Shown: positions 13,556-55,809 of the stretch, in pieces
Position numbering within the stretch: the stretch's first letter is position 1
Layout of the letters: each line of letters opens with the position of its first letter
Assembly (NCBI GenBank): GCA_019096065.1
Contig: JAGUCH010000008.1
Coordinates: forward strand, 501,001 to 565,000
DNA length: 64,000 nt
From: Paracyclopina nana
Taxonomy: Eukaryota; Arthropoda; Copepoda; Cyclopoida; Cyclopettidae
Reading direction: 5' to 3'
Position numbers and translations under genes: made by a program
The notes under the pieces: model-generated
Database searches by the model: none
What the model was told of the DNA's origin: nothing
The model's input: the letters and a program-made list of their open reading frames with translations, nothing else

Positions 13556-14544
13556 ATGAAGGCCTTTGTGAGTATTTTTTATTCTTTATCGCCAATTCAA
13601 GCGAGGTTGCGCGTGTTCAAAGCTCTAAATGTTCCGCGGAACATTTGCGTTCTTATCTACTTTAAGATTAAATTAACTACAAAATTTATTTTTACCATCC
13701 ATTATTTCTGATTAAATCGATGATCTAAACTAAGTATGACTACGAGGTTGCGTGACTCCTTTGAAAAATGTTCCGCGGAGCAAATACACACATCGGTTTT
13801 TAAACTTGCAATAAAAAATGGGCTTCTCTTATTAGAACTGGGAGGTTGCGAGACTTCGTTCCAAAAATGTTCCGCGGAACATTTACACGTTCTTAAATCA
13901 ATAATAATATTAAAGAAAACACTTTTTTTCACAAAATGACCATTAAATAATTAATTTTTTTTTAGATTGCTTTTGCCGCCATTGTGGCCGCTGTTTACGC
14001 CGAGGCCGAGGCCGAGGCCGACCCCGCCTACCTTTACGCCGCCTCTCCATACGGATACTACGGCTACGCCGGTGTCCCCGCCTACTACCACGCCCCCTAC
14101 ACTTTCGGCAAATCCGCCCCCTGTGTCAACGCCGCCAACCAGCCCGTCCCCTGTGCAGGATTTAACGGTTATGTGAAGCGATCAGCTGATTCTGAGGCCG
14201 AGGCCGAGGCCGACCCCGCCTACCTTTACGCCGCCTCTCCCTACGGTTACTACGGATACGCTGGAGTCCCCGCCTACTACCACGCCCCCTACACTTTCGG
14301 CAAATCCGCCCCCTGTGTCAACGCCGCCAACCAACCCGTCCCCTGTGCAGGATTTAACGGTTACGTGAAGCGATCAGCTGATTCTGAGGCCGAGGCCGAC
14401 CCCGCCTACTTTGCCGTGCCCTCCGCCTATGGATACGCTGCCACGCCCTACGGCCTCGCCCCCTATACTTACGGCCACTCCCTCGTCCACACCTCCCACT
14501 TTGGCGTGTGCACCAACTACGTGGGTGCACGTGTACCCTGTTAA
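13556..14544 (+). CDS. Secreted repeat protein with dibasic-bounded units (MKAF family member A)
   Basis: join(13556..13567, 13966..14544), 196 residues. Exon 1 has only four codons (MKAF) and ends GTGAGT; the intron is phase 0. Signal peptide: MKAFIAFAAIVAAVYA, followed by acidic EAEAEADP. The mature part has two nearly identical ~77-residue units: Tyr/Ala-rich PAYLYAASPYGYYGYAG, then APCVNAANQPVPCAGF (two Cys), ending in VKRSADSEAEA. A third, shortened unit ends in GVCTNYVGARVPC. The KR before each SADSEAEA is a plausible proprotein-convertase site, so the chain may be cut into separate Tyr-rich two-Cys peptides. AATAAA follows at 14611. Its role is unknown; a cuticle, mucus or matrix component is one option. 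High GC in exon 2 contrasts with the intron. Confidence 0.82.
13604..13884. repeat. Three copies of an AGGTTGCG + palindrome module in intron 1
   Basis: AGGTTGCG at 13604, 13745 and 13843 is followed 21-23 bases later by the 20-bp palindrome AAATGTTCCGCGGAACATTT (perfect at 13627-13646 and 13865-13884; altered right half at 13766-13785). Spacing within the module is kept while the sequence between modules is not. Candidate transcription-factor site cluster or fragmented repeat. Confidence 0.75.
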
Positions 14545-21604: not shown

Positions 21605-21676
21605 AGGTTCCACCGAGATTTGAACTCGGATCGCTGGATTCAGAGTCCAGAGTGCTAACCATTACACCATGGAACC
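21605..21676 (-). tRNA. tRNA-Gln (CTG)
   Basis: 72 nt on the minus strand starting GGTTCCATGGTGTAATGG and ending GGTGGAACCT. The cloverleaf is complete: 7-bp acceptor stem GGTTCCA/TGGAACC, A box with GGTTAGCAC, anticodon loop CTCTGAA (anticodon CTG), B box GAGTTCAAATCTC. No intron and no encoded CCA, as expected for a eukaryote. Confidence 0.95.
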
Positions 21677-21828
21677 TATCCTACTTAGCTACCTACTTAG
21701 CTATGTTTTCAAGCTGCATTAATAATAATTGATATTTCTGTAAATGTCAAAAAAAATGTTCAATTCAATTCAAACTTCATTAGCTATTAAAATTAATTAA
21801 AAAATGTCGAGTATAAGATCAAAACTCT

Positions 21829-21900
21829 AGGTCCCACCGAGATTTGAACTCGGATCGCTGGATTCAAAGTCCAGAGTGCTAACCATTACACCATGGGACC
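21829..21900 (-). tRNA. tRNA-Gln (TTG)
   Basis: 72 nt; differs from its neighbours in the acceptor stem (GGTCCCA/TGGGACC, a paired compensatory change) and in the anticodon loop CTTTGAA, giving anticodon TTG for CAA. All arms are intact. Confidence 0.95.
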
Positions 21901-22341
21901 TCACTGATTGTTTACACATTTGATTTATAGTATAAATTGAGAAAGTGAATTATCATTTCTATTTTTGAAGTTAAATAACCAAAATAAGTTAAAGAAGGAT
22001 GGATCAAAGAGCTGCATTAAGCATAAGATCAAAGGCTTCTCTTGGATTTTCTAATAAATGGATCAGCTCTTGAAAAGGCCAGAATTGGACTGAACAAGTA
22101 ATTTTCTACAACTTCAATGCAATCGAGCTTCAACTGAAGAGAAGACTCTTGAAATGAATGCAGTGCAGCTTTCAACTTGCAAAATACATGGGAGCGCCCT
22201 CTATGGTCAAAATATATGCATCTTTTGCTACTCTGCAAAAGTGCATCAAAAGATCTTTTGATGACTGCAGTACACACCAAAACTCACAACGTGGAGAAAA
22301 AGAAGGAAATCTAGATTTTGAAACTCCAACAGAAAAAACTT

Positions 22342-22413
22342 AGGTTCCACCGAGATTTGAACTCGGATCGCTGGATTCAGAGTCCAGAGTGCTAACCATT
22401 ACACCATGGAACC
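22342..22413 (-). tRNA. tRNA-Gln (CTG)
   Basis: 72 nt, identical over its length to the first CTG copy, with all stems intact. It is the first unit of a tandem array with a ~174-bp period that includes flanking sequence (GACTCTTGAAGCAGATTTTA). Confidence 0.95.
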
Positions 22414-22515
22414 CTTCATAAAATATAGACTCTTGAAGCAGATTTTATTATATTTTTGCAACATAATAGGTGAAAAAGCAGTTTTTCAACTCTTGAAACA
22501 GCCTGGAAAAAGTTT

Positions 22516-22587
22516 AGGTTCCACCGAGATTTGAACTCGGATCGCTGGATTCAGAGTCCAGAGTGCTAACCATTACACCATGGAACC
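22516..22587 (-). tRNA. tRNA-Gln (CTG)
   Basis: 72 nt, identical to the preceding copy; offset 174 bp from it. The flanking sequence is also nearly identical, so the duplication is recent. Confidence 0.95.
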
Positions 22588-22690
22588 CTTCATAAAATAC
22601 AGACTCTTGAAGCAGATTTTATTATATTTTAGCAACATAATAGGTGAAAAAGCAGTTTTTCAACACTTGAAGAAGCCTGGAAATAAAATT

Positions 22691-22749
22691 AGGCTCCACC
22701 GGATCGCTGGATTCAGAGTCCAGAGTGCTAACCATTACACCATGGAACC
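22691..22749 (-). pseudogene. Truncated tRNA-Gln (CTG) pseudogene
   Basis: 59 nt. A 13-base deletion has removed GAGATTTGAACTC (plus strand), that is most of the T-arm and the internal B-box promoter; one acceptor pair is also changed (AGGCTCC). The anticodon arm and A box remain. It cannot form the T-arm and should not be transcribed normally. Offset 175 bp from the previous copy. Confidence 0.9.
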
Positions 22750-22849
22750 TCGCACACTAAATCAATCTTTCCAAGCAGACTTTATTATGTTTAGCAACAT
22801 GTGTGAAAAAGCAGCTTTTCAAGACTTGAAAAAAGCCCGGAAAAAAATC

Positions 22850-22921
22850 AGGTTCCACCGAGATTTGAACTCGGATCGCTGGATTCAGAGTCCAGAGTGC
22901 TAACCATTACACCATGGAACC
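22850..22921 (-). tRNA. tRNA-Gln (CTG)
   Basis: 72 nt, intact cloverleaf identical to the other CTG copies, last unit of the tandem array; its flanks are more diverged. Confidence 0.95.
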
Positions 22922-46789: not shown

Positions 46790-47470
46790 AAAGCTGATTC
46801 AAAAAATATACAACTCAAATATATAAAGAGACTTCAGGTTGTATGTGGTATTTATTTAAAAATGGCCAATCATGTAGGGTGAATTGACTCTCTATTGGAA
46901 AAACCGCAAGGGCAAAATCGTTACGAAAATCGTTATCTAATTTTTTCGTAGAGTAACTAGCGACATCTAGCGGACTGTTTTGAAACTGAGGCATTTCAAA
47001 TTTTCCCTTATTTCATGACTAATGTTGCCTTTGTGGCTTTTTACAATAAATTCATAATTATCCTATTTTGGCCATTTTTGATAGTATAGCGGCCATTTTT
47101 GAGAATTTACAGAGTTTTTTGAGGAATTTTCACTCTTTGTGGCCGATTCGTCATTTCTAAATTAAACCAAAATGAGTCATACCAATGATTCATTTTTTAA
47201 TGTAGCTCAACTTTTAGTCCTAAAAAAGGTAGAATAGCAAAATAAGCTAATGAAGTAAGCAAACGAATTAACATAAAAAAATTTGCCATGATAATTAAAA
47301 TGTTTTCAAAGATTTGAAAGAGTTTCAAGGTGATGAATATAAGAATCGAGGTTGCGTGATTCAATTTTAAATCTTTCCGCTAACATAATCAAAACAATAA
47401 CAAATACAAACGCGGCGGTCTCTTATTCAGAGACTTGTTAACGAAATGTGATCTAATTACTCCTTAAAGC
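46790..47470. other. Spacer with poly(A) signal and dispersed motif
   Basis: Contains AATAAA at 47045-47050, the likely VWC poly(A) site, and at 47349-47380 one copy of the AGGTTGCGTGATTC ... TTCCGC word pair also found at 13.6-13.9 and 21.5 kb. No gene seen. Confidence 0.5.
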
Positions 47471-47471
47471 A

Positions 47472-49131
47472 ATGTCAAGGTGAGAAAATTTCAATATATT
47501 CAGTGCCAAGCAAAAGCCAAATGTTGTTTCATTAGATTTTTTTGTAATCTCTATGTTATCTATTCTAAATCATGCTGTTGAATTTCAGATTTGCTGAACC
47601 TGTGATCTCCATCAGTGATGCATTGGTTTACGAGTACCTTGAACAAAATGGCCATAAAGTCATTGCTAATGATCTTCGCAAAGCAAGAGATCGGGACCAA
47701 CTTCCAAATCTTCATGGAATCACCCTCAAAACTGTGACCAAATTGTCAATTCCAAAAGTCAACTTAAACGAGCATTCAAGCAAAGGTGACAAGTGCACCA
47801 ACAACTTTGTGCTCAAATATTTGCTCGTGAATGGGCATGTTGATGTTGCGAGAGAGTTCAAAAGTTGTACGCAATCCAGGCTGAAAGATGATGATCACAA
47901 AGAAATGCATCTGGAAGACCTTTTGGACTTCTACGAGACTTTCAACTACAATGATCGGAGTAAGTGGGTGCCAATTCAAGACATATTTCAGGACAAGGAA
48001 GAGCTAATCAATGAGCTTGATAATGGGCAATCTGAAGTTGCTAAAGTGTTGCGATGCATCTTGGAAACCAACATTCCAATTCGAGTCGAACAGATTAAAC
48101 CTTCTAAGCGAACCTTTAGCAAGAGCTTCAATTCCTATAATTTGCCATCGAAGGCTTTGCCTGGAATCAACACAAGAAGGTTTTCAGTTGCACGATTTGG
48201 AGAATCCTCCGAGGAATATCAAATCAACCAAGCTAAACATGAGCTTTTGGACATGGCGATGGTCCACAATGAAAAGAAACTGTACAAAGACTTGATCAAC
48301 ATTGATAAAACTCATCAATGGGCATTATGCATTGTCGGATGCTACTTGTCCAAATATTTGAGAACTGCAAGATATCCGCAAAAGGTGTTTGTGCAAGTTG
48401 CCAAGCCTGTTGTCTTCAATACCGGTGTATTTTCTGAAGAAGACATTGAAGTGATTTCAAAGCATGTTGCCTCCTGTGATGGGGTTGTCGATTATAACAT
48501 GATTGGAAAGAAACTCAATCGAGCAAAATCAGATCTGCTCAACTTTGTCAGAAAGCTCATTGAAAAAAGTGACAAGACACGAAAAGGAGCATTTACACTT
48601 CAAGAAGACACTTTAATCTTGAGATTTGTGCTGACTTTGAAAGTACCCCAAAGCCTTGAAGATTTCACAGAGATCCTCCAGACGCCAATTAATTTTGAAT
48701 CATTGGCTTCCAAGCTGAGCCGTTCAGCTGATTGCATTAGTGCAAGGTGGAATGCATACCTCAAGTCAGTCATTCTTTCGCTATTTCATGGAACACTTGG
48801 TGTTGATCATCGCTCTTTCTTCTTCAACTACCTTATTGCTAACAAAATTGTGTCCACTTCTCAAATTGATTGGGTCGAAGTGGAAAAGCTGTTTCCTAGC
48901 TGCACCAAAAAATATCTCACTGATATGATGAGTGGTATGATATCAAGCAGTGTGAAAAAGATTCCGCTTTATCAAATCTTAAGTAATAGAAGAGCAACCA
49001 CTAGAAATACAAAGACTGTTGAACGAAAAGTGGAAGTGGCTTCTGTGTTTGATGAGCTTCGTGGAATCAAACCTATGAGAGAAAGCACACAAAAAGTTTT
49101 GGAAGAATACAACCTCCAGTCCTTAACTTAG
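47472..49131 (+). CDS. LisH-like/Myb-like protein, tandem copy 1
   Basis: Proposed join(47472..47479, 47589..49131), 516 residues. Compared with copies 2 and 3 the local ATG is replaced by TTT (CAG|ATTTGCTGAA against CAG|AATGGATGAG), so the start must lie upstream: ATGTCAAG|GTGAGA at 47472 joins in frame to give MSRFAEPVIS. (Without splicing, ATG 47572 would give MLLNFRFAEP.) Two LisH-like helices follow: DALVYEYLEQNGHKVIA and FVLKYLLVNGHVDVAREFKS. Later come three Myb/SANT-like segments, including KGAFTLQEDTLILRFV ... LSRSADCISARWNAYLKSV (trihelical, with Trp), resembling TTF1/Reb1-type Myb repeats. A nuclear, DNA-binding role is plausible but unproven. About 60% alike to its neighbours by eye. 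Confidence 0.75.
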
Positions 49132-49171
49132 TTATGCTTTGCCAATTCTAACAATATTCTCCTTTTCCAGA

Positions 49172-50704
49172 ATGGATGAGGCTGTGATTTCTGTCAGTGA
49201 TGCCCTGGTTTTTGAGTACCTCAAACAAAATGGCCATGAGCTGATTGCAAGAGAGCTACTCATAGTAAGGAAACGAGACCAACTGCCAAACTTGCATGGC
49301 ATTGACCTCAAGGCTGTGATTGAACTAGCTCAAGTGAAGGGAGAATCTGAGAAGTCGCTATGCGAAGAAAACAAGTGTGCCAACAACTTAGTGTTCAAAT
49401 ATCTACTTGTGAATGGTCACATTGGTGTCGCAAGAGAATTCAAAAGTTGTACGCAATCAAGGCTGAAAGAAGATGACCACAAAGAAATGCATCGGAAAGA
49501 CCTTTTGCAATTCCACAATACATTCAATTACAAGGATCGAAGCAAGTGGATACCAATTCAAGAGGTATTTTGCGACAAGCTTGAGCAAATCAAGGAGCTA
49601 GATGATGGCAAATCTGAGGTAGCTAAAGTGCTACGGCACATTTTGGAAGCCAACATTCCAATTCGAGTAGCACAAATTACGGCTGCGATGCTGAACCTCA
49701 AGTTTAAGTTGGATGAACTGCAATATCCTGCAAAGGCTCTTACTGGCATTGACACAAGAAGGTTTTCTTTTGTAAGGTTTGGTGCTTCCTCCGATGAATC
49801 TTTAATTGATAAAGCTAATAAATCTCTTATAAGAGATGCTATGGTTTTGAATGAGAAGAGCTTTTTCAAAGATTTAGCAAAATTAATGAAAACTCATCAA
49901 TGGACAATGTCAATTGTGGGCTGTTACTTGTCAAAGCATTTGAGGACTGCTCGATATCCTCAAAAAGTGTGCATGAAAGTTGTCAAACCATATGTGTTCC
50001 AGACTGGTCCCATTTCTATCCAAGACTTTGATGTTATCTCAAGTCATCTAGCTTCCACAAATGGAAATGTTGATCTTGAACTTCTTCAAAAAAGTTTGAA
50101 TCGATCAAGATCAGACCTCAACAAAATTGTCAAAAGACTTTTGAGCAAGATGAAGAACACTCAAACAGGCCCATTTTCACTGTTTGAAGACTCTATGATC
50201 TTGAAATGTGTGTTAAATGGTGAAAAGCCCAAATCTCTTGAAGAGTTTGAAGAGTTATCTCAAAGATCTAGCAAGTCTTTGGATTCTCTTGCTCCCATCT
50301 TAAACAGAACTGGCCAATCCATCAAATCACACTGGAATGGATACCTGAAGACAGTGATCATTTCATTGTTTCATGGTAACTTATCTCAAGACTTTCGAAA
50401 GATTTTCTTCAACTATTTAATTTCTGCAAAAACTGAATCTATTTCTCAAATTGATTGGAATGAGGCAAAGAAGTTGCTACCAAGTTGCACCAAGCAATAC
50501 CTCACTGATTTAGTGTGTGGTGCCATCAGCAGTACTGAAAAGCAAAGGCCCCTATTCCAAATATTGAGTGACAATTCATCATCCAGAAAGTTGTCTAAGA
50601 GAACTGAAAGGAGAGTTGAGGTTGCTCAAGTCTTTGATGAGCTTCGTGGAAAGAAAGCAATGAGTGATACAACAAAAAAAGCTTTTGAGAATTTTGGCTT
50701 TTGA
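49172..50704 (+). CDS. LisH-like/Myb-like protein, tandem copy 2
   Basis: Single large exon, 510 residues from ATG 49172 (MDEAVISVSDALVFEYLKQN). LisH-like segments at about 7-33 and 70-92; SANT/Myb-like segments near 280-325, 333-402 and 404-450, with LNRTGQSIKSHWNGYLK as the recognition-type helix. It begins 40 bases after copy 1's stop; a clean acceptor TCCTTTTCCAG ends one base before the ATG, at 49170, with no room for a local first exon. The N-terminal ~100 residues are nearly identical to copy 3, while the rest is more diverged, which suggests gene conversion or domain-specific constraint. Function unknown; the family looks lineage-restricted. Confidence 0.8.
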   Translation: MDEAVISVSDALVFEYLKQNGHELIARELLIVRKRDQLPNLHGIDLKAVIELAQVKGESEKSLCEENKCANNLVFKYLLVNGHIGVAREFKSCTQSRLKEDDHKEMHRKDLLQFHNTFNYKDRSKWIPIQEVFCDKLEQIKELDDGKSEVAKVLRHILEANIPIRVAQITAAMLNLKFKLDELQYPAKALTGIDTRRFSFVRFGASSDESLIDKANKSLIRDAMVLNEKSFFKDLAKLMKTHQWTMSIVGCYLSKHLRTARYPQKVCMKVVKPYVFQTGPISIQDFDVISSHLASTNGNVDLELLQKSLNRSRSDLNKIVKRLLSKMKNTQTGPFSLFEDSMILKCVLNGEKPKSLEEFEELSQRSSKSLDSLAPILNRTGQSIKSHWNGYLKTVIISLFHGNLSQDFRKIFFNYLISAKTESISQIDWNEAKKLLPSCTKQYLTDLVCGAISSTEKQRPLFQILSDNSSSRKLSKRTERRVEVAQVFDELRGKKAMSDTTKKAFENFGF

Positions 50705-50738
50705 TTCTTCTTCAAAGCAAGCTTGATCTGTGAGATTC

Positions 50739-50746
50739 ATCAATAA
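50739..50746 (+). terminator. Poly(A) signal after copy 2
   Basis: CAATAAAC about 37 bases after the copy 2 stop and about 60 bases before the acceptor that precedes copy 3. Confidence 0.55.
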
Positions 50747-50808
50747 ACATAACATCCAAATACAATGTAGTATGAACTAAAATGTATAAAATAATTTTGC
50801 TTTTCAGA

Positions 50809-52341
50809 ATGGACGAGGCTGTGATTTCTGTCAGTGACGCCCTGGTTTTTGAGTACCTCAAACAAAATGGCCATGAGCTGATTGCAAGAGAGCTACTCAT
50901 TGCAAGGAAACGAGACCAACTGCCAAACTTGCATGGCATCAACCTCAAGGCTGTGATTGAACTAGCTCAAGTGAAGGGAGAATCTGAGAAGTCGCTATGC
51001 GAAGAAAACAAGTGTGCCAACAACTTAGTGTTCAAATATCTACTTGTGCAAGGGCACATTGGTGTCGCAAGAGAATTCAAAAGTTGTACACAATCAAGGC
51101 TGAAAGAAGATGAACACAAAGAAATGCATCTGAAAGACCTTTTGCAATTCTACAATACATTCAACCACAATGATCGGAGTAAGTGGGTGCCAATTCAAGA
51201 AGTATTTGGCGACAAGGTGAAACTGATTCATGAGCTTGATTATGGGCAATCTGAAGTTGCCAAAGTGGTGCGTTACATCTTAGAAAGCAATATACCAATC
51301 CGAGCAGAGCAAGTTGCTGCTGCCAAAATGAAATTAAAAGTTGACTTAGACAAATTTCATTACCCCACTAAGGCACCTCCTGGAATCAATACAAGAATGT
51401 TTTCCTTTGCTAGATTTGGTGCATCATCTGAAGAATATCAAATTGAGTTGGCTCGTCACGAACTTGTGTCCACAGCAATGGTTATAAATGAGAAGAAGCT
51501 GTACACAGATTTGTACAAATTATCCAAGTCATACCAATGGGCAGTTTCAATTGTTGGATGCTTCTTGTCAAAATATTTGAAAACTGCAAGGTATCCTCAA
51601 AAAGTGTTTATGAAGATTGCCAAGCCTTTTGTTTACAAATCCGGAAAGCTGTCTGAGGAGGACAAAGATTATATTTTGAAGTGTATGGAATCATCCAAGG
51701 GGGCCAATTTGAATTTGAAGTTGATGCAAAGAACTCTTCTTCGCTCAAGAACCGACATCCAAAAGTTTGTCAAAAAGCTGAGGGACAAGTGCGACAAGAA
51801 TCGAAAAGGACTATTTACATTATCAGAAGACACTTTGATTCTAAGTTTTGTGATGAAGTCAAAAGTACCCCAATGTCTTGAGGATTTTTGCAAATTCTAC
51901 AAAGACCCAATTTCATTTGATTCACTAGCTCCTCTACTGAGCAGAACAAGCCTTTCCATTGGAGGACGTTGGAATGGTTACCTCAAGACAGTTATACTTT
52001 CATTATTTCATGGATCACTATCCAGTGATTATCGCAAGATTTTCTTCGACTACCTCATTTCTTCAAAAACAGAATCCATTTCCCAAATCAATTGGAGTGA
52101 GGTGGAAAAGTTTTTGCCTTGTTGCACCAAAAAATATCTCACAGACATTGTCAGTGGTGCTGTTCCTTGGACTGAAGGAAGAAAACCACTTTACCAAATT
52201 TTGTGCAAAAAACAATCCTCTAGAAGAAGTTTGGCTCATGTTAACCGAAGAATTGAAGTGGCCAAAATCTTTGATGAGCTTCGAGGTGTGAAACCAATGT
52301 GTGACACAACAAGAGACTTGTTGAAAAAGCTGCAGAATTAG
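50809..52341 (+). CDS. LisH-like/Myb-like protein, tandem copy 3
   Basis: Single large exon, 510 residues from ATG 50809. As in copy 2, an acceptor (TTGCTTTTCAG, ending 50807) lies one base before the ATG. Order: LisH-like ALVFEYLKQNGHELIARELL, LisH-like LVFKYLLVQGHIGVAREF, a middle part (TRMFSFARFGASSEEYQ, then CFLSKYLKTARYPQKVFMK, strongly kept in all three copies), SANT-like KLSEEDKDYILKCM, Myb-like GLFTLSEDTLILSFV with LSRTSLSIGGRWNGYLK, and a third helical unit SQINWSEVEKFLPCCTKKYL. The conserved W and K/R residues of the Myb-like helix argue for nucleic-acid binding; this is inference. No obvious AATAAA close downstream. Confidence 0.8.
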   Translation: MDEAVISVSDALVFEYLKQNGHELIARELLIARKRDQLPNLHGINLKAVIELAQVKGESEKSLCEENKCANNLVFKYLLVQGHIGVAREFKSCTQSRLKEDEHKEMHLKDLLQFYNTFNHNDRSKWVPIQEVFGDKVKLIHELDYGQSEVAKVVRYILESNIPIRAEQVAAAKMKLKVDLDKFHYPTKAPPGINTRMFSFARFGASSEEYQIELARHELVSTAMVINEKKLYTDLYKLSKSYQWAVSIVGCFLSKYLKTARYPQKVFMKIAKPFVYKSGKLSEEDKDYILKCMESSKGANLNLKLMQRTLLRSRTDIQKFVKKLRDKCDKNRKGLFTLSEDTLILSFVMKSKVPQCLEDFCKFYKDPISFDSLAPLLSRTSLSIGGRWNGYLKTVILSLFHGSLSSDYRKIFFDYLISSKTESISQINWSEVEKFLPCCTKKYLTDIVSGAVPWTEGRKPLYQILCKKQSSRRSLAHVNRRIEVAKIFDELRGVKPMCDTTRDLLKKLQN

Positions 52342-52510
52342 CTTGGAAAATTGTCAGCTCTTTAAGTAATTGGAGTCTTCAATCAATACATTTTCCACTG
52401 AGGTAAGTGGTGTATAATCTTTTGCTTGTTAAGAACTCATTAGGCTTTCAAAGATAAAGTTCTAATGTTACAATTTAGGCTTTTAGTAGTTTAACAGTTG
52501 CAAGACAGCA

Positions 52511-53875
52511 ATGTGTTTTGAAGGACATGCTTACACTTTTGTGTCAAAGCTTGCACTTTTCCTTCTCTTGAGTATTGCATGTTTTTTCCAAGTCAAAGAG
52601 AGCTTTGAAAAGTACCTTGATGGGAGTAAAACTATAGCTACCAATTATGAAAAAAGAGAAAGCATCCCCTTTCCCATGTTTATTATTTGCCCAAGTGTCC
52701 CTTTCAAGAATGAGAGTGTTCAGAAGGAAGCAAATATGTCAATATTTTCCGTGGTCTCTGATCCAGGCTTCATTTATTGGCCAAATAAGCAGGAAAATGT
52801 TATTGAGGCATGGGATAAAATTACATTCAGCTTGGATGAAATGTTAACTTCCATGATATTTGAAGTCCATGGTTCACCTACAACGATTCATAGATCAGGA
52901 ATAGAAGATCTTGAAAAAGGCAACTTTTCATAATTCTATTTTTAAATGCGTCATTTCTTTTTGTACACAGGCAATACGTTTAAATTTGTTTCGTTTAAAA
53001 AACTTGGTACCAAGTTGGGTATTGTTCAAGTTTCGTGCAAACAAAAATTTATTTGATCATCAAGAAGTAAAATTGTATCTTTTGCCACATGACGGCTATG
53101 CAATTGGTTTTCAAGCATCATTATTTGATCATAATCCTCATGAAATATTTTTGCATGAGAGGGAAGAAACAACATTGTCAATAGAAGTTCATGAACATAT
53201 TTCTTATTCTGGATATGACTCTTGCGATTCAAACAGTGACCAAGCAAAGTTTGCCAAATGTTTTCGAGACTTTCAAAAGCAACATGTGTACAATCAGTCT
53301 GAATTCAATAGTTTGGTTCGATGCAATGGATCAACATATAAAAGCTGTCAAATTCCTCATGTAACTTTTCCAATCATAACTCAGTTTTGAGTCAGTAGCG
53401 ACAAATTTTTTTATCTCAGTTTTCAGGTGAAGTTGATTCTATGTGCACTGATGTTGAATCTGCAAGTTGTTCATTATCAATTGTGAGAAATTCTTATGGT
53501 CTTTTATTTGACAATGATTTCAAAGCTTGTAGAAAGCCATGTAAAATAGTCAAGTATGAGAGCAACAAAATCACTGTCCCATATTTACCACCGAGCAATG
53601 AGACTTGGTAATTGCTCTAAGAGTAATCAAGTCAGAGATTATAATGGAATACAACACATTTCAGGTTATATGTTATTTTTAATTCAGCCACTGTTGCTGT
53701 CCATACTGAGCTTTTACTTATGGATTTCAACTCAATTTTGGCTTCTGTGGGAGGATGATCAATGGGACTTTTCATTGGATTTTCTTTTCTTGACTCTTTA
53801 TTTTGTTTTGGTCAAGCTTTGTGCACAATCTTTTCAAACAATGCTTTCAATAATTTTCATGATAGGCGCTTTTAG
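52511..53875 (+). pseudogene. DEG/ENaC channel pseudogene (copy 1)
   Basis: Four exon-like blocks, about 52511-52919, 52971-53360, 53420-53607 and 53665-53875, align with the intact gene at 54303-55749. First block: TM1 (FVSKLALFLLLSIACFF) and PFPMFIICPS. Breaks: (1) the start of block 2 lacks about 15 residues around the conserved Gly-x-Cys-Tyr and is out of frame with block 1; (2) an in-frame TGA at 53756-53758 sits inside the TM2 motif, where the neighbour reads VGGSMGLF. Otherwise blocks 3 and 4 keep splice sites and sequence. AATAAA at 53879. It is most likely a recently disabled channel gene; alternative splicing could remove the first break but not the second. Confidence 0.78.
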
Positions 53876-54302: not shown

Positions 54303-55749
54303 TTGAGTGTACATAAGAAAGTCAGCAGTTATACCAAAAAAATGCTCCTGACAGGTTCAAAATTCACTTTAGTAGTTAGAGTTTGTCTATATATTTTGTT
54401 AGGCATTGGATGTTTTTTCCAAGTGAAAGAGAGCATTGAAAAGTACCTCAATAAGAGTGAAACAATTGCTACCAACTATGAGAAAAGAGAAAGTATTCCC
54501 TTTCCCATGTTTATCATATGTCCAAGTGTCCCTTATAAGAATGCAAGCGTTCAGAAGGATGCAAATATGTCCATATTATCCACAATAGCTGACCCAGACT
54601 TGATCTCATGGCCGAACAAGCAAGAAAATGTAATTGAAGCATGGGACAAAATTACATTCAGCTTGAATGATATGTTGATTTACCTTGGCGTCAAATTGAA
54701 CGGTACTTGGACGGAATTGAATAATACACAAGAAATTCATGCACTAGGAAAAGGCAAACTTTTTGGCTTCATTTTTTAAGTTTTGTCATTGAAATTTTAA
54801 ATACATAGGAATTCCATTTGGTTTTTTTGCATCTGAAGTTTTTGGTACTTTGTACATGGGCAAATGTTACAAAATTATTATCGATACAAACTTCAGTTTT
54901 GGTGATGTTGTCATGTTGAAGTTTAATGCAAATAGGAATTTATTTGATCATAATGAGATCAAGTTGTACATATTGCCCAAAGGAGGATATGATGTTGGAT
55001 TTCAGGGATCGTTATTTGACCTAGACGTTCATGAAATGATTATACATGAAAGAGAAGAAATCACTGCAATGTTAGAAGTTCATGAGCATAACTCTTTCAC
55101 TGGATGTGACATGTGCGACCAGAACACTGACCAAGAAAAGTTTGCTATATGTTTTCAAGAATTTCGCGAGAAATTCATTAATAATCAGTCTGTTATCAAC
55201 TGTACTGAGAATTGCAATGGAGCAACATATACAAGCTGTAAAATTCCTCATGTAAGTATTGCTTATGAGTTTATAAAAAGAAATACTGGTATACTAATTA
55301 ATTTTGACGATAGTTTTCAGATGAAGTTGATTCTATGTGCACTGATAGCAAATCTGCTAGTTGCACATTTCAATTACAAAAAGACTCTTGGTACATCCAG
55401 CTTTTGAAAGATAACTTGATGGCTTGTCCAAGCCCATGCAAAATAGTCAGCTATGAAAGCAGAAAAATCACAATCCCTTACTTGCCTCCAGACAATGAGG
55501 CTTGGTGAATTTCATATCATACATTATGAAACTTGCACTAATAACTTGAGCAATTTCAGGTTTTACTTGAGCTTCAACTCAGTCACTGTGACAATGCACA
55601 ATGAGCAACTACTTATAGATTTCAACACTATTGTGGCTTCAGTGGGAGGATCTATGGGCCTTTTTGTTGGATTTTCTTTCCTTGATTTTCTATCAGCCAT
55701 TGGGCAAACTTTCAGCTCACACATTTGCAAACATCATTGTAACAAATAG
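54303..55749 (+). CDS. DEG/ENaC sodium-channel family subunit (copy 2), four exons
   Basis: join(54303..54753, 54809..55251, 55314..55504, 55560..55749), 424 residues. Two-pass membrane channel subunit: TM1 at about 21-40 (FTLVVRVCLYILLGIGCFFQ), the family's post-TM1 block PFPMFIICPS at 66-75, the G-x-C-Y turn (YMGKCYKI), a Cys-rich extracellular part (GCDMCDQ, CTENCNGATYTSC, CPSPCKIVSYE), and TM2 with VASVGGSMGLFVGFSF. Such subunits form trimeric amiloride-type Na+ channels (pickpocket/degenerin). Intron 1 needs a GC-AG splice (AAAAG|GCAAAC); exon 3 starts after GACGATAG. ATG 54345 is an alternative start. Shorter than most pickpockets. It ends 60 bases from the convergent minus-strand channel gene. 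Confidence 0.82.
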
Positions 55750-55809
55750 ATTAGTATATCTTGCATCCTTCAACCTTAAGATAAAGCATAAGCAACATTT
55801 ATTCTTTGG

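Follow-up and report, generated by a model that had tools for sequence, protein, structure and literature searches.

A first exon possibly shared by three tandem gene copies in the copepod Paracyclopina nana

Introduction

In the genome of the cyclopoid copepod Paracyclopina nana (GCA_019096065.1; 92 Mb in 10 contigs), three copies of one gene stand in tandem, of which only the first has a first exon. How could copies 2 and 3 be expressed? The locus lies in a 64,000-nt stretch of contig JAGUCH010000008.1 (C8:501001-565000), referred to here as the window; coordinates without a contig name are window positions. A preliminary description of this DNA offered three readings: a first exon shared between alternative last exons, an array resolved by spliced-leader trans-splicing, or acceptors retained as relics of duplication. 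The first of these fits best, and the other two are weaker. Judged from the sequence, the best explanation is a single promoter and a single exon 1, with three whole-gene terminal exons as alternative splicing partners of that exon, a reading that we hold with moderate confidence.

Organization of the Three-Copy Locus

All features of the locus lie on the forward (+) strand. Exon 1, ATGTCAAG, occupies positions 47472-47479, ends in phase 2 and is followed by the donor GTGAGA at 47480. Intron 1 of copy 1 (47480-47588, 109 nt) contains a branch-like CTAAA and ends in a CAG acceptor at 47586-47588; the second exon (47589-49131) carries a LisH domain. The stop codon of copy 1 (49131) is separated from exon 2 of copy 2 (49171-50704) by a gap of 39 nt (49132-49170), which holds a branch-like CTAAC at 49148-49152, a pyrimidine tract and a CAG acceptor. 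Between the copy 2 stop (50704) and exon 2 of copy 3 (50808-52341) lie 103 nt (50705-50807) with an AATAAA at 50742, a branch-like CTAAA at 50777-50781 and a CAG acceptor at 50805-50807. The phase of exon 1, the in-frame acceptors ending at 47588, 49170 and 50807, and the short spacing between copies 1 and 2 had all been pointed out before, and they are borne out here: coordinates and frames are exact to the base, and joining exon 1 to the three acceptors gives MSRFAEP, MSRMDEA and MSRMDEA, respectively. Exon 1 supplies two residues and part of a third codon, and all the rest is encoded by exon 2. Homologous 3' exons are thus arrayed in tandem, each with its own acceptor, and all acceptors are phase-matched to one upstream donor.

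A Gene Family with a Characteristic First Exon

The three copies belong to a family of proteins of about 513 residues with a LisH domain, of which a protein search detected at least nine copies in the genome, seven on C8 and two on contig C3. This count is a lower bound from 12 protein matches, ten of which (E ≤5e-9) represent the nine copies, the matches at E 0.0995 and 0.293 having been dropped. All four other full-length C8 copies (p1101, p1108, p1268 and p1575) begin with an exon ATG[T/A]CAAG with donor GTAA, followed by a phase-2 intron of 55-165 nt and an acceptor; with copy 1 included, the pattern becomes ATG[T/A]CAAG with donor GTRA. Since these four dispersed copies share the first exon and the phase-2 intron, the structure of copy 1 is the family norm, and it is copies 2 and 3 that lack the first exon.

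The LisH assignment (PF08513) of copy 1 has an E-value of 1.4e-4 and a score of 22.1 bits, above the gathering cut-off of 21.6, below which copies 2 (19.4) and 3 (16.8) fall; at E up to 1, LisH is matched in 7 of the 8 aligned family members. A regulatory or scaffolding role for these proteins would be a guess from this domain. A Myb/SANT identity found no support, a Myb-like stretch of copy 2 scoring 14.2 bits with PF00249, far under the cut-off of 24.4. An AlphaFold model of copy 2 built on the three copies in the window had a mean pLDDT of 47.4, too low for further use; one search of solved structures gave a single match at E 0.78 and another gave none, and a search for a viral relative gave 12 pattern matches, none of which was confirmed. 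On C3, the family paralog at C3:1149539-1161494 (L025, L026) is interrupted by an LTR-type insertion whose ends are identical over 200 of 200 bases, and which is probably recent. For the other C3 copy, the fetched stretch shows no match to the first 124 residues.

Tandem Duplication, Selection and Gene Conversion

Copies 1-3 group as a single clade (support 1.0). Because of this grouping and because copies 2 and 3 lack exon 1, exon 2 was evidently copied in tandem, taking the final stretch of its intron with it. Pairwise NG86 dN/dS among the three copies is 0.27-0.30 at dS 0.92-1.16, a rough estimate given that NG86 dS approaches saturation beyond 1. The tree and the dN/dS analysis omitted both C3 copies, and alignment A2 also omitted q1149, one of the two. 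By this measure copies 2 and 3 have been maintained as genes, apparently held under selection.

The likeness of copies 2 and 3 is unevenly distributed. Over their first 120 codons (49172-49531 and 50809-51168) they are 94-98% identical, and beyond this about 65% on average; dS between them is 0.30 up to alignment column 165 and 1.61 beyond it. In the 3' part, copy 3 clusters with copy 1 (support 0.954) instead of copy 2. This pattern points to gene conversion between copies 2 and 3, beginning at the exon boundary. The shared block beats 2000 of 2000 shuffles, but the test is unspecific for conversion and N-terminal constraint contributes to its result, because each of the four remaining pairs likewise outscored either every one of 500 shuffles or every one except a single shuffle. 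The contrast in dS is the better sign of conversion.

Acceptors and Start Codons of Copies 2 and 3

A branch-like CTAA[A/C], a pyrimidine tract and CAG are present ahead of exon 2 in all three copies. Among 5148 ATGs on both strands of the window and seven fetched loci, only three pass the full acceptor configuration, two of them being those of copies 2 and 3. The configuration comprises YAG, one base and ATG, at least 9 pyrimidines in 16 positions and a branch-like CTAAH, with no AG in between; its thresholds were set after the copies had been seen. A stricter tract threshold combined with a looser branch rule lets 13 of the 5148 ATGs pass, with copy 2 included and copy 3 excluded; on the stricter tract test, the acceptor of copy 1 itself scores the same as that of copy 3. 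A chance origin of the acceptors of copies 2 and 3 was rejected on the rarity of the full configuration.

The sequences preceding the acceptors also resemble one another. The last 36 nt ahead of CAG are alike beyond shuffles between copies 2 and 3 (P 0.0045) and between copies 1 and 2 (P 0.026), and those of copies 1 and 3 fall short of significance (P 0.085). By a longest-shared-word test, only copies 1 and 2 are significantly alike (P 0.0175; copies 1 and 3, 0.78; copies 2 and 3, 0.25). Such likeness fits an intron end that these copies would have inherited from their common source.

In copies 2 and 3 the base after the acceptor is followed directly by an ATG (49172 and 50809) in good context, with A at -3 and G at +4. 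Among the five copies that possess a first exon, the corresponding residue is F, L, C, Q or L. Were the start codon always provided by exon 1, a Met here would be unneeded, and its presence in copies 2 and 3 is therefore somewhat surprising. The C3 copy q1149, however, reads MTMEEAV with no intron at that place, so the Met of copies 2 and 3 may be old.

Donors, 3' End Signals and an Upstream Motif

By a donor score with approximate weights, 29 sites within 47000-53000 score above 4.5, and only two exceed 7.1: the exon 1 donor at 47480 (10.5) and a site at 52403 (11.9, the highest). Within 47000-50807 the exon 1 donor is the best, its runners-up (7.1) both lying upstream of exon 1. The best rival donor between 47480 and 50807 scores 6.8, and an additional leader exon equipped with a strong donor in that interval was therefore rejected. 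Pairing of intron 1 RNA with the gaps ahead of copies 2 and 3 showed no excess.

An AATAAA/ATTAAA signal is located at 50742 ahead of copy 3 and another inside the copy 2 ORF at 49817; none occurs in the 39-nt gap, nor from 52341 to 53600 past copy 3. With no such signal between copies 1 and 2, the copy 1 transcript most likely includes the acceptor of copy 2.

Upstream of exon 1, by about 100-125 nt, lies a possible promoter element (47348-47380, + strand), consisting of GAGGTTGCGTGA at 47348-47359 and TTTCCGC at 47374-47380. In the genome, GAGGTTGCGTGA occurs 422 times vs 6 for a reversed control. It is found 120-150 nt upstream of exon 1 in copy 1, p1101 and p1268, with GGTTGCG at -122, -125 and -145, respectively, and about 425 nt upstream in p1575. 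We infer that GAGGTTGCGTGA may mark promoters, as an imperfect marker, because it was not found near the first exon of p1108 and is about 425 nt off in p1575. At up to one mismatch, it is absent from exon 1 of copy 1 to the end of copy 3, the gaps included.

A bipartite form, GGTTGCGTGA-N8-16-TGTTCCG, has 114 genome-wide occurrences vs 0 for its reversed control; copy 1, whose second half is the variant TTTCCGC, lies outside these exact matches. It resembles a protein-binding site, possibly a promoter element, more than a repeat, because the spacers listed are mostly unrelated. Motif sites in the window are those at 13744 and 47348 (exact) and at 13842, 21506, 45418(-) and 58497(-) with one mismatch; the fetched loci hold sites at L021:5595, L023:4494 and L024:3993.

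A Shared First Exon and Its Alternatives

Taken together, these data favor a shared first exon, on account of the family first exon, the matching phase, the selection on all three ORFs, the kept acceptors of copies 2 and 3 and the lack of a strong rival donor, and further because no AATAAA/ATTAAA separates copies 1 and 2 and the upstream motif is absent near copies 2 and 3. Under this model, a single promoter and a single 8-nt coding first exon, ATGTCAAG, would serve copies 1-3 as one transcription unit, in which the large second exon had been duplicated in tandem along with the end of the preceding intron. The primary transcript would extend through copy 2 and sometimes copy 3, and the donor at 47480 would be joined to 47588, 49170 or 50807, producing MSR followed by protein 1, 2 or 3. 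Transcripts of copies 1 and 2 would end together close to the AATAAA at 50742, and copy 3 would need read-through beyond it. Against the model count the ATGs at the exon start of copies 2 and 3, the possible conversion of their acceptors, the non-significant likeness of the copy 1 and copy 3 intron ends, the imperfect association of the upstream motif with first exons, the lack of excess pairing between intron 1 and the gaps, and the missing AATAAA/ATTAAA past copy 3. Splicing of exon 1 to copies 2 and 3 is thus what we infer from sequence features, and the prediction is sharp: RNA-seq of the species should contain three junctions, ATGTCAAG joined to ATTTGCTG, to AATGGATG and to AATGGACG.

The leading alternative, unlikely yet deserving serious consideration, is that the acceptors are relics and that copies 2 and 3 are each transcribed from a promoter in the gap or in the last part of the ORF ahead of it, remaining unspliced and starting at their own ATGs. 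Those ATGs, at the exon start and in good context, suit such local transcription, and tight spacing is evidently tolerated here, the next gene (ATG 52511) beginning 169 nt past the copy 3 stop; the AATAAA at 50742 could also terminate copy 2 transcripts ahead of copy 3. Yet in the 39-nt gap there is hardly any space for a copy 2 promoter, and the motif found upstream of exon 1 is missing near both copies. The TATAAAA of copy 3 begins just 24 nt upstream of its ATG; at the spacing usual for TATA elements, a start directed by it would not fall upstream of that ATG. The branch-like site, tract and CAG are moreover all kept in both copies, though the sequence before CAG, which lies outside the conversion-like tract, has otherwise diverged. 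The weight of this last argument is reduced by gene conversion, which may have preserved CAG: if a recent conversion carried CAG along, the acceptors of copies 2 and 3 amount to little more than one observation, and the low dS of 0.30 at the exon start could account for the survival of both.

A second alternative, which we regard as improbable, is that a polycistronic pre-mRNA is resolved by a non-coding leader added in trans at 49170 and 50807. Spliced leaders have been reported in copepods and amphipods (PMC4664967, PMC7986045), and such trans-splicing would likewise use an acceptor near the ATG (PMC4664967). The layout is operon-like, with short same-strand gaps of 39 and 103 nt and an acceptor ahead of each downstream ATG; AATAAA, acceptor and ATG follow in order ahead of copy 3, and the ATGs belonging to copies 2 and 3 themselves fit a leader that is non-coding. 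The suggestion of trans-splicing nonetheless found no support: the two copepod leader cores searched for, those of CopepodSL and CopepodSL-like1 as given in PMC4664967, have no match in this genome when up to 3 mismatches are allowed. A loose 17-base core has eight matches, which fail to continue as the leader, and the five sampled 5S loci carry only 5S at Rfam cut-offs, with one Sm-like word seen in four of the five. Moreover, the family copies that have a first exon lack a constant acceptor ahead of their ATG. Were this reading true, the locus would be an arthropod operon; that it is one in the full sense, with one promoter, three paralogous cistrons and a novel leader trans-spliced at 49170 and 50807, we likewise regard as improbable. 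A 2021 paper states that operons had not yet been reported in copepods or amphipods (PMC7986045).

Improbable too, and the least likely of the four readings, is the translation of copies 2 and 3 from a read-through multi-ORF mRNA by reinitiation or internal initiation with no further splicing, for although copy 1 transcripts meet no AATAAA/ATTAAA ahead of copy 2, the kept acceptors would be needless and reinitiation works poorly once an ORF exceeding 500 codons has been translated.

Relation to Known Systems

A single first exon serving three tandem genes would be uncommon, although not unprecedented. In the vertebrate POLN/HAUS3 locus, a shared first exon is likewise joined alternatively to two ORFs, and one promoter is suggested; the HAUS3 coding exons sit inside the first intron of POLN, whose start codon lies in the second exon in a good Kozak context (PMC4591814). 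By that account, a start codon in exon 2 coexists with a shared first exon, so the ATGs of copies 2 and 3 are compatible with one too. POLN and HAUS3 are, however, different proteins that overlap in the 5'UTR (PMC4591814), whereas the present locus consists of three duplicated ORFs in tandem and has an ATG in exon 1. Insect serpins (PMC10513286) and Drosophila pip (PMC9013439) resemble the present locus in combining a constant 5' part with homologous, alternatively used 3' exons. The variable part of PpSerpin-1 comprises 44-50 amino acids and the constant part is large (PMC10513286), in contrast to a variable part of nearly the whole protein and a constant part of 8 nt here; pip is given there as a 3'UTR example, unlike the coding exons of this locus (PMC9013439). 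The predicted arrangement is of a known kind, unusual in that the shared part would be only 8 nt long and the alternatives almost complete proteins. A narrow literature search found no published array of exactly this form. If real, the array would stand midway between duplicated genes and alternatively spliced exons, with copies that never acquired separate promoters and yet remained under selection.

Neighboring Genes and Other Genomic Features

The strong donor downstream of copy 3 (52400-52408, + strand; GAG before GTAAGT), whose intron would begin at 52403, 61 nt past the copy 3 stop, may belong to the next gene (ATG 52511) or to a 3'UTR intron of copy 3. It could splice toward the ATG at 52511, in which case the first exon of the next gene would overlap or abut copy 3. 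The sodium-channel-like copy at 52511-53830 matches Pfam ASC and has an in-frame TGA at 53756-53758, in a stretch read as GGSMGLF by its neighbor at 54342-55750; it is possibly a pseudogene. Elsewhere in the genome, TTAGG, a telomere type that points to an arthropod, fills contigs C1 and C3 at their right ends and not at their left ends. The contigs searched for COX1 gave no match. A 5S rRNA array spans C1:913544-939931, in the sampled part of which (L033, L036) two 5S variants alternate in a unit of about 470 bp. Within the window, six tRNA matches, five strong and one weak, cluster at 21605-22921 (-).
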